DNA of 20,235 nucleotides from the IMG/VR virus record IMGVR_UViG_3300044213_000019, positions 1 to 20,235 of that record, one strand, 5' to 3'. A model generated the notes under the pieces. That model was given only the letters and a program-made list of their open reading frames with translations, had not been told where the DNA came from and did not search any database. Of this stretch, positions 14,956 to 20,235 are shown one piece after another. Every line of letters begins with the position of its first letter. Positions within the stretch are counted from its first letter, which is position 1. This DNA comes from a virus. Both the position numbers and the translations under genes were made by a program.

Positions 14956-15402
14956 ATGAAAATTTTACGTTTCTACGCCGACTGGTGTGCGCCCTGTACT
15001 CAGTTTAGTCAAATTCTAAAAGAAGTCAAAGAGAAGTACGGTGGTAACTTTCCAATTCAAATTGACTCTGTGAACATCGAGGAAAATATTATGGAAAGTA
15101 TTGCCTTCGATATTAAGAATATCCCAACACTTGTTATGATTGATGACAAACGTAACGAAATCAAACGCAGCGTTGGTGTCATGACTGTTGAGCAAACAAT
15201 GGCATGGATGGATGACACTTCTGCTCCTTCAAAGTCAGAGGTAAAACCTAAAGCAACTGCCAAGAAAACACCAGCTAAGAAAGCTCCAGCGAAAAAGGTT
15301 GCTGAAAAGAAACCAGCTGCTAAGAAGGCTCCTGCTAAAAAGGTTGCTCCAAAAACAAAAGCTCCAGCAAAGAAAGTAACAAAACCAAAGGCTGATAAAT
15401 GA
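14956..15402 (+). CDS. Thioredoxin with histone-H1-like Lys/Ala/Pro-rich tail
   Basis: A 148-residue two-part protein. Residues 1-88 are a thioredoxin fold: FYADWCAPC with active-site C11 and C14, strand and helix order intact, and the cis-proline at P57 in NIPTLVMID. Residues 97-148 are a low-complexity tail of AKK, PAKK and APAKK repeats, strongly basic and resembling the C-terminal tail of histone H1 or bacterial AlgP/HU-type tails. Thioredoxins reduce disulfides, for example in ribonucleotide reductase. The tail would be expected to bind DNA or acidic partners (inference). It is first in a unit with its own promoter at 14909 and an AGGAG ribosome site 6 nt upstream. It overlaps a second, tail-less thioredoxin by ATGA. 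Confidence 0.9.
   Translation: MKILRFYADWCAPCTQFSQILKEVKEKYGGNFPIQIDSVNIEENIMESIAFDIKNIPTLVMIDDKRNEIKRSVGVMTVEQTMAWMDDTSAPSKSEVKPKATAKKTPAKKAPAKKVAEKKPAAKKAPAKKVAPKTKAPAKKVTKPKADK
15244..15399 (+). repeat. Coding repeat region for the Lys/Ala/Pro tail
   Basis: The segment encodes imperfect tandem units of PAKK, AAKK and APAKKV type in the thioredoxin tail. Codon choice varies between units (for example GCTAAGAAG, GCGAAAAAG and GCTAAAAAG), so the protein repeat is better kept than the DNA repeat. That suggests selection on charge and composition rather than very recent slippage. Confidence 0.75.
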
Positions 15403-15647
15403 AAGTATTAAAATTTTATGCTGACTGGTGCGGACCATGTAAGTCTTTGAGCGCTACGTTAGAGAAACATTATACTGGCGAAGTTCCAGTTGAGAGTGTT
15501 AACATTGACACCAACCAAGAAGCTGCTATTACCTACGGTATTCGTGGTGTGCCTACTTGCATCTTGATCGATGAACATGGTACTGAGGTTCGTCGTAAGA
15601 GTGGTGTTATGATGATCGATGAATTTGAGAAATTTGTAAAAGGATAA
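15399..15647 (+). CDS. Thioredoxin (second, minimal copy)
   Basis: An 82-residue thioredoxin: MKVLKFYADWCGPCKSL with the classical WCGPC site (C11, C14) and cis-proline in GVPTCILID (P52). It is short, ending soon after EVRRKSGVMMIDEFEKFVKG, and lacks the first strand and helix of E. coli thioredoxin, as is common for phage versions. It is paralogous to the preceding gene: FYADWC, the S-V-N-I segment, the (I/V)PT block and the SGVMMIDEF/VGVMTVEQT end align. An ATGA overlap couples the two genes, and uvsX follows 2 nt after the stop. It may reduce a nucleotide-metabolism enzyme encoded elsewhere (inference). Confidence 0.93.
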   Translation: MKVLKFYADWCGPCKSLSATLEKHYTGEVPVESVNIDTNQEAAITYGIRGVPTCILIDEHGTEVRRKSGVMMIDEFEKFVKG

Positions 15648-15649
15648 TC

Positions 15650-16723
15650 ATGGGCATTTTAGATAAGCTGAAAAAGAACTCTACCATCAAAGATTCTTCG
15701 CTTCTATCAGAATCGAAATTCTTTAAGAAGAAGGATATGATTCCTACTTCAATTCCAGTTGTTAACGTAGCTCTGTCTGGTCGCCTAGACGGTGGTCTAA
15801 CTCCTGGACTTACAATGTGGGCTGGTCCATCGAAGCACTTCAAGACTGCCTTCAGTTTGTTAATGGCGAAAGCATATTTGGACAAGTACGATGATGGTGT
15901 TGTTTTGTTTTATGATTCTGAGTTTGGTACTCCTCAGTCCTACTTTGATAGTTTCGGTATTGATACTGAGCGAGTTATTCACACACCGATAACTGATATC
16001 GAACAGTTGAAGACTGACCTTTCAAACCAACTCAATGGTATTGAACGTGGCGACCATGTTATCATTGTGATTGACTCGATTGGTAACTTGGCTTCTAAGA
16101 AAGAAGTAGACGATGCCCTTGACGGCAAGTCTGTTGCTGACATGACTCGAGCAAAACAACTCAAGTCAACTTTCCGTATCGTTACACCTCATCTAACAAT
16201 CAAGGATATTCCTATGGTTGTTGTGAACCATACGTATATGGAAATCGGTATGTTCCCTAAAGCCATCGTTGGTGGTGGTACTGGTTCATACTATTCTGCC
16301 GACAACATCTTCATCCTTGGTCGTCAACAAGAGAAGGAAGGTACTGAGATTGTCGGATACAATTTTATTATCAATGTGGAAAAATCTCGTTATGTTAAGG
16401 AAAAGTCTAAGATACCTGTTAGCGTATCTTTTGACGGTGGTATTAGCCGTTGGTCTGGCTTACTCGATATCGCAATCGAATCTGGACATGTCATCAAGCC
16501 TTCTAATGGTTGGTATCAAAAAGTAGACAAAGAAACTGGTGAAGTTGATGAGAAGAAGTATCGTGCAAAAGATACAGATACCAAAGACTTCTGGATGTCA
16601 ATTCTTACAAGTAAATCGTTCAATGATTTTGTGAAGAACAAATACTCAATTGCCCATGGTGAAGCGATCATGCGCGATGATGTTGATGCAGCTTTGGAAG
16701 CGTTGGAATTTGAAGATGAGTGA
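15650..16723 (+). CDS. uvsX: UvsX RecA-like recombinase
   Basis: A 357-residue strand-exchange ATPase that drives recombination-dependent replication and repair in T4-like phages. The Walker A motif is the UvsX-type GPSKHFKT (59-66; T4 has a similar GPSKSFK), Walker B is IVIDSIGN (139-146), and the loop region KEVDDALDGKSVADMTRAKQ and GGGTGSYYSAD blocks are typical. The acidic C terminus (DDVDAALEALEFEDE) is a RecA/UvsX feature. AAGGA before the ATG supports the start. It follows the thioredoxins and overlaps gp40 by 8 nt. The uvsX-40-41 order is the same as in T4. Confidence 0.96.
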   Translation: MGILDKLKKNSTIKDSSLLSESKFFKKKDMIPTSIPVVNVALSGRLDGGLTPGLTMWAGPSKHFKTAFSLLMAKAYLDKYDDGVVLFYDSEFGTPQSYFDSFGIDTERVIHTPITDIEQLKTDLSNQLNGIERGDHVIIVIDSIGNLASKKEVDDALDGKSVADMTRAKQLKSTFRIVTPHLTIKDIPMVVVNHTYMEIGMFPKAIVGGGTGSYYSADNIFILGRQQEKEGTEIVGYNFIINVEKSRYVKEKSKIPVSVSFDGGISRWSGLLDIAIESGHVIKPSNGWYQKVDKETGEVDEKKYRAKDTDTKDFWMSILTSKSFNDFVKNKYSIAHGEAIMRDDVDAALEALEFEDE

Positions 16724-17045
16724 TCATCTTGTAAAACCACCTTACATTGCAGTTGAGAATCGCAAGACAGGTGTTGTCGCATTAAAGTTGACAGAACAAC
16801 CATTTGAGGGTATAATTATCTCTTACGGTAAAGTTGACTTCAATGAGCAGGGCGACACCTGCAAATTGCACTTCGAATATGATGTGCATGAAAGTCCTGT
16901 CGATTACGACCGAGCTGAACTTGAGCATTACCTTGGAGATCTTCTTCAATTTTTGATTATGGATCAATTGTCCAAGAACGAAATTATTTACACTGGTGGA
17001 ATTGATGAGAATAGAAACAAAGATTCTGAGCAATCTGATTTATGA
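16716..17045 (+). CDS. 40: Probable head vertex assembly chaperone (T4 gp40 family)
   Basis: A 109-residue protein from ATG 16716 (MSDHLVKPPYIAVENRKTG), overlapping the uvsX end by 8 nt. The core QPFEGIIISYGKVDFNEQG, LHFEYDV and HYLGDLLQFLIMD matches the pattern I expect for small gp40-type proteins (a P-x-x-G-x-x-x-x-Y/F-G-K-V-x-F strand pair, an F-x-Y strand and a GD-L-x-x-(I/L)-I helix). Exact position between uvsX and the helicase, as in T4, is the stronger argument. In T4, gp40 assists formation of the prohead initiator vertex. A perfect promoter motif lies inside it. Confidence is moderate because the family is short and divergent. Confidence 0.65.
   Translation: MSDHLVKPPYIAVENRKTGVVALKLTEQPFEGIIISYGKVDFNEQGDTCKLHFEYDVHESPVDYDRAELEHYLGDLLQFLIMDQLSKNEIIYTGGIDENRNKDSEQSDL
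16788..16816 (+). promoter_or_regulatory. Perfect sigma70-type promoter inside gene 40, upstream of helicase
   Basis: TTGACA at 16788-16793 and TATAAT at 16811-16816 with a 17-nt spacer match the full consensus. It lies about 190 nt before the helicase start at 17005 and so could give a separate transcript for gp41 and the dioxygenase genes after it. Confidence 0.65.
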
Positions 17046-18399
17046 TGAACAATACTGCAGAAAAGTCATTCCATTTATTAAAACAGAATACTTTTCTGAC
17101 AGGAAAGAAGCGATTCTTTCAAAGGTTATTACTGAGTTTTTCACAAAGTATAACAAACCCCTAACAAAAGAAATCCTTTCGATTGAAGTTGGTAACAGAA
17201 CTGACATCAACGATAAAGAACTTGGGGAACTTAACACATACATTGACACACTAGCCCATGAGGAAATCAATGACTCATGGATGATTGAGCAAACTGAAAA
17301 GTTTTGTAAAGACAAGGCAGTATATAATGCAATTCTACACTCAATTAAAATCATCGATGGAGGAGATAAGGTACACACCAAAGATTCGATTCCTTCTATT
17401 CTCTCTGATGCTCTTGCCGTTTCTTTTGACAACCATGTTGGTCATGATTACCTCGAAGATAGTAACTCTCGTTACGAATTTTACCATCGGGTTGAAGAAA
17501 AGATTGCTTTCGATTTGGACATGTTCAACAAGATTACTAAGGGTGGTCTTTCAAAGAAAACATTGAACATTGCTTTGGCTGGTACTGGTGTTGGTAAGTC
17601 TTTGTTTATGTGCCATGTTGGCGCATCTGTTCTGACTCAGGGCAGGAATGTTCTGTATATCACAATGGAAATGGCTGAAGAACGTATCGCTGAACGTATT
17701 GACGCAAACCTTTTGAACCTGACAATGGATGAGTTAAAGGTTATCGACAAAGATATTTTCGACAATCGTCTTCAAAAGATCTCCAAGAAAACACAGGGTA
17801 AACTAATCGTCAAAGAGTATCCAACTGCAGGTGCTCATGCTGGACACTTCCGTGCGTTGCTTGAAGAACTTAAACTGAAGCGTGAATTTACTCCAGATAT
17901 TATCTTCATCGACTATCTTAACATCTGCGCAAGCCAGCGTATGAAGCAGGGAGCCAATGTAAACTCTTATACATATATTAAGAGTATCGCTGAAGAGTTG
18001 CGTGGTTTGGCTGTTGAATATAATGTTCCTATTGTATCAGCTACACAAACAACAAGAAGTGGTTACTCAAATAGCGATCCAGGACTTGAAGATACTTCAG
18101 AGTCTTTTGGGTTACCAGCCACGGCTGACTTTATGTTTGCGTTAGTTTCGAATGAAGAACTTGAAGCGTTGAACCAGATTATTGTTAAACAGTTAAAGAA
18201 TCGTTACAATGATCCAAGTTTCTATAAGCGTTTTGTTGTTGGGATTGATAGATCTAAGATGAGATTATATGATGTTGAGGCTTCTGCGCAGGTAGGGTTA
18301 TCTGATTCTGGTCAAGAAAAAGATGATGTTCCTATGTTCGACAAGAGCGATTTCGGTAAACGTCAAAAAGAAGAAGCATTCCGTGGGTTTAAGTTTTAG
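17005..18399 (+). CDS. 41: Replicative DNA helicase, DnaB-like (T4 gp41 family)
   Basis: A 464-residue hexameric 5'-3' helicase that unwinds the fork and works with a gp61-type primase. From ATG 17005 it begins MRIETKILSNLIYDEQYCRK, matching the start of T4 gp41 (475 residues). GGTGGA at 16995-17000 precedes this ATG. An in-frame GTG at 16996 is possible but lies in that ribosome site. Walker A GTGVGKS is at 193-199, then the RecA-core blocks ITMEMAEERIAERI, the Walker B FIDYLNI and VSATQTTRSG. The C terminus DKSDFGKRQKEEAFRGFKF is basic and could contact primase or loader. It overlaps gene 40 by 41 nt, as a coupled pair. Confidence 0.95.
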   Translation: MRIETKILSNLIYDEQYCRKVIPFIKTEYFSDRKEAILSKVITEFFTKYNKPLTKEILSIEVGNRTDINDKELGELNTYIDTLAHEEINDSWMIEQTEKFCKDKAVYNAILHSIKIIDGGDKVHTKDSIPSILSDALAVSFDNHVGHDYLEDSNSRYEFYHRVEEKIAFDLDMFNKITKGGLSKKTLNIALAGTGVGKSLFMCHVGASVLTQGRNVLYITMEMAEERIAERIDANLLNLTMDELKVIDKDIFDNRLQKISKKTQGKLIVKEYPTAGAHAGHFRALLEELKLKREFTPDIIFIDYLNICASQRMKQGANVNSYTYIKSIAEELRGLAVEYNVPIVSATQTTRSGYSNSDPGLEDTSESFGLPATADFMFALVSNEELEALNQIIVKQLKNRYNDPSFYKRFVVGIDRSKMRLYDVEASAQVGLSDSGQEKDDVPMFDKSDFGKRQKEEAFRGFKF

Positions 18400-18408
18400 G
18401 AGAAAGAA

Positions 18409-19773
18409 ATGGTAAAAGTAATTGTAGCTGAAAAGAAAATTGATTGCTCACATCTGTTGGGTAAGTTTGTTGATGAATCACATTACGACATTTTGGTAGA
18501 GGAAGATGCTGACGTTTATATGCCAGCAACCTGCGATATCGCAACTCAAGCTACTTGCGAGTTGAATAAAGATTGCGCTTCATGCTCGAAGGGTACTGAT
18601 GAATTGCGCATCGCTTTCAAATTCCGCAAGAACTACTTCACCAAAGAAGAGCAGGATGCTGCATATCTTGGACTAAGAGAAGCTGCTGGTAGAACTGAGA
18701 ACCGTGGACTCGCCTCTGGTATTAAAGACGGTGTTCTTGCTACTTCTGAAGGTCGTGAGTGGGTTACCAACTATCAAGACGAGATGATGCAAATGATTCT
18801 TAAGAATCGTACTGAGTCATTGATTGATGAAGACGTTATCGACATTATTCGTGCCAAATATCCACGTGAAGTTGATAAGAAGATGGCTGGTGGTGACGGT
18901 AAAAACAACGTCTGGGTTATCTCTCGTTTCCGTGGTAAGTTTGACTTTGAACAGTGGCTTGATTCTATCAAACCTTTGACTCGCGAAGAACGAGCAAAGG
19001 CAACGGAAGAAGTCATGAAGATGGTTAGCACAACTACTTACGGTAACGCAGTTAACTCTGGTATTGCTGGTTGGTTTGACCGCTACCCACGTATCCCTTA
19101 TGGTCGTGCGACTTCTTATACTCGCGACAACTTTGACAAATTTAAGATGGCATACCCATTCCTTCAAACACTTGCCAAAGGTTTCAAGGATCTGTTGCCA
19201 TGGCGTTATAACAATCAGATGGAAGCTGCCAAGAAAGTTGACCCACGTTACTTGGTTCCAGAAACTCCATTCACAACTATCACTGTGAATAAAACTTTCC
19301 GTACAGCTGCCCACTTTGACGCTGGTGATTTACATACTGGTTTGTCTAACCTTTTGGTTCTGTCTAACAATGGTAACTACAAAGGCGGATACCTAGTTGC
19401 GCCTGAGTATCGTGTTGCTGTCAACGTTCGTCCTGGCGACTTGCTGTTGATTAACAACCACGAAGTATTGCACGGCAACACTCCAATTGAATTGTTGGAC
19501 GAGGAAGCTGAGCGTGTTTCGTTGGTTTGCTACTTCCGTGAGAAGATGTTGGAACTTGGTTCTTATGAATATGAAGAATGCCGTTACAACTTTGTTGAGA
19601 AACGCAGACTGAATAAAGAACACCCATTGTGGAAACATTTATGGAATGGTGTTTCTGAAGGTATGTGGGAAACAAAAGAGTGGTATGACTATCTTGAAGA
19701 ACAACTTGGTCGCGACGTTCTTGTTAAATACCACCCAAAGGCAAACGCAGGTTCTCTTGAGGGATTCTTTTAA
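18409..19773 (+). CDS. Probable TET/JBP-type 2OG-Fe(II) dioxygenase (DNA base oxidation)
   Basis: A 454-residue protein with an AGGAG ribosome site 6 nt before the ATG. Residues 285-380 form a dioxygenase core: R298, HFD (H302, D304), GLSNLLVL, GGYLVAPEY, a PGDLLLIN turn, distal histidine H355 in VLHGNTPI, and R369 in ERVSLVCYFRE for 2-oxoglutarate. The H-x-D, GLSNL, GG-x-L-x-PEY, GD-LL, HGN, R-x-S-L-V-C-Y order is that of the TET/JBP family, which hydroxylates 5-methylcytosine or thymine in DNA; I am inferring family from motifs. Residues 13-59 carry five Cys (C13, C42, C50, C56, C59) that could bind zinc. It follows the helicase where replicated DNA is produced. The base substrate is unknown. 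Confidence 0.68.
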   Translation: MVKVIVAEKKIDCSHLLGKFVDESHYDILVEEDADVYMPATCDIATQATCELNKDCASCSKGTDELRIAFKFRKNYFTKEEQDAAYLGLREAAGRTENRGLASGIKDGVLATSEGREWVTNYQDEMMQMILKNRTESLIDEDVIDIIRAKYPREVDKKMAGGDGKNNVWVISRFRGKFDFEQWLDSIKPLTREERAKATEEVMKMVSTTTYGNAVNSGIAGWFDRYPRIPYGRATSYTRDNFDKFKMAYPFLQTLAKGFKDLLPWRYNNQMEAAKKVDPRYLVPETPFTTITVNKTFRTAAHFDAGDLHTGLSNLLVLSNNGNYKGGYLVAPEYRVAVNVRPGDLLLINNHEVLHGNTPIELLDEEAERVSLVCYFREKMLELGSYEYEECRYNFVEKRRLNKEHPLWKHLWNGVSEGMWETKEWYDYLEEQLGRDVLVKYHPKANAGSLEGFF

Positions 19774-20235
19774 TGGATCATAACATTATTCCGATATTTC
19801 CTCGTCCATTATATCTTGCGAATATCGGTACACTCGAGAGCGAAAGTGTTTCGTTTCTCAGAGGACTACCTTTTCATGAGCAAATAAATGGTAAGAACTT
19901 CTACAGCGATAATACAAATATACTTGATACAGTAGAGATGTCATCATTAAAGTCTAGAATACAAACACATCTTGACACATACGTTAAAGAAGTTTTGTGT
20001 ACAGATAATGAAGTTAGTTTGCGTATAACTCAGTCATGGGTAAATGTTAATCCACCAGGAACATTTCATAATGCGCATATGCATACTAATAGCATAGTAA
20101 GTGGTGTGTTTTACATAGAACCATCCACTTTACCATCTATGATGTTTCATAAGGAAACTCCTCATGGTATAGATTTTGTATGTGACAGTGAACGTAACAT
20201 GTTTAACTCTCCACACTTTAAGATAAAATGTGAGG
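19773..20235 (+). CDS. 2OG-Fe(II) oxygenase, 2OG-FeII_Oxy_5-like (3' end cut off)
   Basis: ATG at 19773 overlaps the previous stop (TAATG), and the frame stays open for 154 codons to the window edge. The N terminus MDHNIIPIFPRPLYLANIGT and the segment ITQSWVNVNPPGTFHNAHMH, then SIVSGVFYIEP, match the putative 2OG-Fe(II) oxygenase family common in T4-like cyanophages (S-W-x-N-x-x-x-x-G-x-x-x-x-x-H-x-H then S-G-x-(F/Y)-Y). H102 and H104 lie in the expected iron-binding region; the distal histidine and arginine lie beyond the window. The substrate in phages is unknown. Coupling to the TET/JBP-like gene suggests joint expression. Confidence 0.85.
   Translation, partial: MDHNIIPIFPRPLYLANIGTLESESVSFLRGLPFHEQINGKNFYSDNTNILDTVEMSSLKSRIQTHLDTYVKEVLCTDNEVSLRITQSWVNVNPPGTFHNAHMHTNSIVSGVFYIEPSTLPSMMFHKETPHGIDFVCDSERNMFNSPHFKIKCE

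Follow-up and report, generated by a model that had tools for sequence, protein, structure and literature searches.

A gene in the replication block of a T4-like phage is confirmed to encode a protein of the TET/JBP family, with a TET-type double-stranded beta-helix fold in its structural model, and in related viral loci it is followed by one of several mutually exclusive decorating modules. It lies at positions 18409 to 19773 of a 20,235-base virus record, the whole of which was analysed here and is called the window. The explanation that we find best as a whole, with a probability of about two in three, is that the TET enzyme makes a hydroxymethyl handle, most likely on thymine, and that this handle is decorated by the product of an interchangeable next gene.

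In the proposed mechanism, TET would act on phage DNA after its replication and hydroxylate a pyrimidine at its 5-methyl group, the likeliest substrate being thymine and the product 5-hydroxymethyluracil (5hmU). The hydroxymethyl group would then serve as a handle for the gene directly after TET, the interchangeable part. Where that gene encodes an amino acid:DNA transferase (ADDT), a P-loop kinase would activate the hydroxyl and the ADDT would swap the phosphate for an amino acid, perhaps elaborated further by amidotransferase, amidoligase and GNAT genes. In the glycosyltransferase versions, a TET-associated glycosyltransferase (TAGT), a GT4-like GT-B enzyme or a protein with the fold of T4 beta-glucosyltransferase (BGT) would attach a sugar directly. 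Hypermodified in this way, the DNA would withstand the nucleases of the host. Such modular exchange of decorations would account for a rapid change of DNA chemistry among related phages in the face of host defences. We consider it slightly better than an even bet that a large T4-like clade uses JBP-like thymine oxidation in replicated DNA to reach base-J-like glycosides or aminoacyl-thymines by gene swapping, with an unannotated T4-BGT-like glucosyltransferase among the swapped genes.

The general idea is not new, since Iyer et al. reportedly predicted in 2013 that TET/JBP products are starting points for further base modification, and the Pfam families ADDT, TAGT and Ploopntkinase3 presumably derive from that line of work. 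No literature description was found of the T4-like clade, of strict module exchange after TET, of TET replacing the hydroxymethylase in ADDT phages or of the BGT-like 335-aa family described below. As of 2019, glucosylated 5hmU was stated to be unreported in phages (PMC6449724).

Gene layout of the window

The replication block in the window comprises genes for a sliding clamp, clamp loaders, RegA, ligase, DNA polymerase, UvsX and a helicase. The features used in this report are:

15650–16723, + strand: UvsX-like recombinase (PF21134, PF00154, PHROG 97)
16996–18399, + strand: DnaB-like replicative helicase, gp41 type, upstream neighbour of TET (PF03796, 5.8e-20; PHROG 19, 1e-127)
18400–18408, + strand: likely ribosome-binding site GGAGAAAGA, from the helicase stop to the TET ATG (direct sequence reading)
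18409–19773, + strand: TET/JBP-family 2OG-Fe(II) DNA-base dioxygenase gene, 454 aa (Pfam PF12851, PHROG 24024, modelled fold)
19312–19320, + strand: codons H302-F-D304, predicted Fe(II) ligands (conservation in homologues)
19471–19473, + strand: codon H355, predicted third Fe(II) ligand, in the HGN block (conservation in homologues)
19513–19515, + strand: codon R369, predicted 2-oxoglutarate-binding Arg (conservation in homologues)
19773–20235, + strand: second 2OG-Fe(II) oxygenase gene, 2OG-FeII_Oxy_5 / PHROG 81 (PF13759, 1.4e-7; PHROG 81, 1.7e-20)

The original prediction placed TET directly after the replicative helicase, and the coordinates bear this out: the open reading frame begins 10 bases past the helicase stop codon, with AGGAG near its start. 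By neighbour-gene clustering, a helicase of the same cluster adjoins TET in 64 loci. The second oxygenase gene shares bases with the TET stop codon and is truncated by the window end at 20235. Further upstream, two adjoining small open reading frames (14956–15647) both match the thioredoxin-domain PHROG 22.

Family, catalytic residues and fold of the TET protein

The 454-aa protein matched Pfam Tet_JBP (PF12851) over residues 235–378 with an E-value of 1.7e-26 and 92.9 bits, far above the curated cut-off of 34.9, and PHROG 24024 over its whole length (2e-154). Across 68 near-full-length homologues, the catalytic residues named by the original prediction, H302, D304, H355 and R369, are kept in 97% or more, and they are invariant even among phage TETs of 23–25% identity. 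The sequence blocks that it described are also present (GLSNL at 311, PEY at 332, HGN at 355), except that the PEY block reads GGYLVAPEY and is one residue longer than given.

An AlphaFold2 model was built from 30 sequences (the window and viral contigs; mean pLDDT 82.8). In structural comparison its nearest fold was TET2 (Z 20.9, 264 residues, rmsd 3.9), followed by NgTet1 (Z 18.7), CMD1 (18.7) and CcTet (17.1); the top 16 structural entries belonged to the TET family throughout, with AlkB/FTO enzymes ranking lower at about 14 or less. The matches are thus not confined to hydroxylases of proteins or small molecules. The TET/JBP identity is supported by the profile match, the catalytic residues and the modelled fold alike, and from it we infer an oxidation activity.

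The N-terminal 280 residues, previously regarded as unfamiliar, proved to be part of the family fold: the TET2 and NgTet1 alignments begin at residue 1, which rules out a separate N-terminal domain of unknown type, and the region is retained by compact phage TETs of 288–307 aa. The five early cysteines do occur (13, 42, 50, 56 and 59); of these, C13 (78%) is the only one with good conservation. Residues 42–60 form a low-confidence loop in the model, so that with four of the five cysteines poorly conserved and in a disordered loop a metal site is unlikely, and a zinc-binding N-terminus was rejected. Pfam detected no JBP DNA-binding or SNF2 domain in the 454 aa, only Tet_JBP and weak 2OG families. 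The label "SNF2 DNA repair protein" attached to TET in several records is misleading, and PHROG 6059, labelled queuine tRNA-ribosyltransferase, also matches TET under what looks like a wrong label.

Decorating modules downstream of TET

A scan gave 71 related viral loci, and TET genes were also present in two isolated phages, Stenotrophomonas phage DLP6 (TET and TAGT) and Caulobacter phage Cr30 (TET, ADDT and kinase), and in phage C48C1. The order in the relatives is helicase, then TET, then the decorating module. Because the window stops 462 bases past TET, no methyltransferase or glycosyltransferase had been visible to the earlier reader. Downstream cassette genes matched the Pfam families ADDT (1e-20), TAGT (5e-19), Glycos_transf_1 (GT1; 9e-9) and GATase_6 (7e-8); other members are GNAT acetyltransferases, ParB, radical SAM proteins, a weak Amidoligase_2 match and a P-loop kinase of the Ploopntkinase3 family.

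Modules were scored with profiles built from gene clusters in the 45 loci whose downstream sequence extends for 4 kb or more. ADDT was found in 33, a GT4-like glycosyltransferase in five, TAGT in four (one of them DLP6), the 335-aa protein in two and another arrangement in one (C48C1); no locus carried two modules (0/45), a weak TAGT-like match in Cr30, below the Pfam cut-off, being left out of the count. The P-loop kinase accompanied ADDT in 32 of 33 loci and occurred in none of the other 12, so that ADDT and kinase share one cassette in 32 of 45 relatives. The association gives a Fisher p of 5e-10 when relatedness is ignored, and with phylogenetically independent pairs about five of five agree (p 0.06), five being all the contrasts that exist. 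An apparent kinase in L002, from a single-linkage clustering match, was spurious. The hydroxyl must be activated for ADDT chemistry but not for that of the glycosyltransferases, so the kinase pattern fits a shared hydroxymethyl handle.

We regard it as extremely improbable that TET is a passenger gene and that the modules have nothing more in common than a recombination hotspot behind the helicase. In favour of it, the window shares 87% identity with L002 across 10 kb, and this homology ends 33 bases beyond the TET stop codon, which marks a recombination boundary. Against it, TET has been kept through six to eight module swaps (on the TET tree, at least eight changes counting unclassified loci, and six for ADDT versus the rest), and every module is of a type that acts on hydroxymethylated DNA. 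Moreover, TET is under purifying selection, with dN 0.023 and dS 0.405 against the 96.5%-identical L002 homologue (dN/dS about 0.06).

It is also improbable, if less so, that TET acts on something other than phage DNA bases: a free nucleotide, RNA or tRNA, or, as a counter-defence, 5mC or 6mA marks of the host. 2OG oxygenases are catalytically versatile, and the structural neighbour CcTet was crystallised with 6mA DNA. This is opposed by the position of TET within the replication gene block and by its linkage to DNA-specific transferases (ADDT, TAGT and the BGT-like protein), the kinase occurring only with ADDT.

Several cassettes have further genes of interest. In C48C1, TET is followed by a 344-aa protein of unknown function and then, two genes past TET, by a UDP-galactopyranose mutase (L075:14375–15385), which suggests a galactofuranose decoration. 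A myo-inositol-1-phosphate synthase near TET and ADDT (L062:12602–13960, and L074:17293–18474 in Cr30) may supply an unusual decoration, and a radical SAM protein adjoins the ADDT cassette in seven loci (e.g. L068:13725–15155). The kinase at L055:15515–16108 matches PHROG 800, "terminase small subunit", a name that its Cr30 homologue also bears in RefSeq and that looks wrong. At the genome start of the mycobacteriophage Magpie (L212:1–3462), ParB, a divergent TET-like protein, ADDT and Ploopntkinase3 stand in a row.

A 335-aa protein with a BGT-like model

In L022 (11321–12328) and L023 a gene after TET encodes a 335-aa protein for which no Pfam match was found. A separate scan for this protein gave 30 loci. 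In 29 of them TET lies upstream, either adjoining or, in loci with complete sequence, no more than about 800 bases away; the thirtieth locus starts inside the 335-aa gene. None of these loci had an ADDT, TAGT or GT4-like module in the stretch covered by the records. The structural model (pLDDT 82.2) had T4 BGT as its best match (Z 20.4, 294 residues, rmsd 3.3), the next enzyme reaching Z 17.4. By Foldseek, other GT-B enzymes were slightly ahead by E-value, and the TM-scores of BGT were the highest among those listed. As the protein was picked by position only, its predicted BGT-like fold speaks independently for a hydroxymethylated-DNA product. The family could become a new DNA-labelling tool.

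Substrate base

The original prediction left the substrate base and any further decoration open; the relatives narrow this, with glycosyltransferase or ADDT modules and no detected C5-methyltransferase. The C5-methyltransferase family PF00145 was found in none of 59 TET-carrying records, of which 12 are complete or of full genome size and many others are fragments, in a search that would miss a divergent methyltransferase or 5mC made by the host. As a positive control, the same search finds the C5-methyltransferase of the TET phage Melnitz.

A second line of evidence is the thymidylate-synthase-type hydroxymethylase (PF00303, dUMP or dCMP type), which was absent from the tested TET records of the relatives, Cr30 excepted. 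The Cr30 match scores 373 bits, in the manner of an ordinary thymidylate synthase; Ackermannviridae-type enzymes score 27–59. All four Ackermannviridae-type ADDT phages tested have PF00303 and none has Tet_JBP, whereas the ADDT phages of the present clade have Tet_JBP without PF00303, the only overlap being Cr30 (TET with an ordinary thymidylate synthase). Magpie likewise combines TET (a match under the curated cut-off) and ADDT without PF00303. From this alternation, TET seems to take over the role of the hydroxymethylase in supplying ADDT. In characterised relatives of the ADDT pathway, 5hmdU is acted on by a kinase and then by a transferase (PMC6449724). The failure to find a C5-methyltransferase, the apparent replacement of the hydroxymethylase by TET and ADDT pathways that start from 5hmdU together favour thymine; by this argument by exclusion we infer thymine over the alternatives by about two to one. 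Each of the eight large TET genomes from viral contigs that were tested encodes ThyX, the ordinary dTMP route; this is weak support for thymine, ThyX being common in such phages.

The main competing reading, which we judge unlikely but by far the most serious, is that TET oxidises 5-methylcytosine to 5-hydroxymethylcytosine, subsequently decorated, with the methyl group added by the host or by a methyltransferase that escaped recognition. The phage TETs described so far serve cytosine hypermodification (Burke 2021, as cited in PMC10273834 and PMC11404850). In Melnitz (L211:4010–8090) the gene order is C5-methyltransferase, TET, a 427-aa protein of unknown function and P-loop kinase; the logic recurs here in a cytosine form, with a 427-aa step that has no known family. 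Since this kinase family and TET occur in Melnitz together with a C5-methyltransferase, the kinase alone does not imply thymine. Near-base active-site positions differ between Melnitz and the window, in a comparison that included no thymine-specific enzyme sequence. Also counting against thymine are a gene annotated "DNA methyltransferase" in C48C1 and the T-even phage TAGT homologues annotated as acting on glucosyl-hmC. Cytosine derivatives are the substrates of these homologues and of T4 BGT, for which 5hmU in duplex DNA is a poor substrate (PMC4111573), and the glycosyltransferase sub-groups could therefore differ in base. What lowers the cytosine reading is the PF00145 result, with positive controls that worked, and the fact that the commonest module, ADDT, is the transferase of 5hmdU pathways. 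DLP6 DNA is listed in PMC8228603 as restriction-enzyme resistant, which is consistent with a modified genome and silent on the base; the enzyme panel used on DLP6 comprised 18 enzymes, GC-only cutters among them.

Comparison with known systems

Phage cytosine hypermodification by TET and C5-methyltransferase (Burke et al. 2021, as cited in PMC10273834 and PMC11404850) resembles the present loci in having a phage TET/JBP oxygenase followed by transferases that decorate the product. The clade described here differs in its lack of a detected C5-methyltransferase, in ADDT as the commonest module and in a full-length 454-aa TET beside a T4-type helicase.

The thymidine hypermodification of ViI, M6 and phiW-14 (5hmdU, kinase, then transfer of an amino acid or alkylamine) shares with the ADDT loci the ADDT-family transferase plus a P-loop kinase, with 28% identity to Ackermannviridae proteins over almost the whole length; the kinase here is from a different P-loop family. 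In those phages a hydroxymethylase of the thymidylate-synthase type supplies 5hmdU ahead of replication, whereas here that enzyme is missing and TET appears to stand in its place; known thymidine hypermodification begins with a pre-replication nucleotide, a step that an oxidase acting on finished DNA seems to replace.

The JBP1/2 and base J system of kinetoplastids is similar in its TET/JBP oxygenase, predicted thymine hydroxylation and subsequent glycosylation. It differs in that the phage protein has no Pfam-detected JBP DNA-binding or SNF2 domain and in its glycosyltransferases. The T4 5hmC pathway (gp42 hydroxymethylase, alpha- and beta-glucosyltransferase) also has a modification gene adjoining the uvsX–gp41 block, and one module here has a modelled T4 BGT fold; in the present proposal, however, the handle would be made after replication by oxidation and not by a dCMP hydroxymethylase.

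Module of the window phage

Homologues of the second 2OG oxygenase occur in L010, L011, L019, L027, L028 and L065, where they lie between TET and the ADDT cassette in six of six. That the window phage carries an ADDT cassette is a guess that we lean towards, and it stays a guess because the nearest TET relatives of the window, L002 and L003, carry a GT4-like glycosyltransferase and no ADDT. Exact DNA patterns across the right end of the window found no contig that continues it, and no close relatives of the partial second oxygenase were found, the best being 32–44%. The genome of the nearest sibling (G001) encodes a tryptophan-halogenase-like protein (L085:7345–8862; 1.4e-75).
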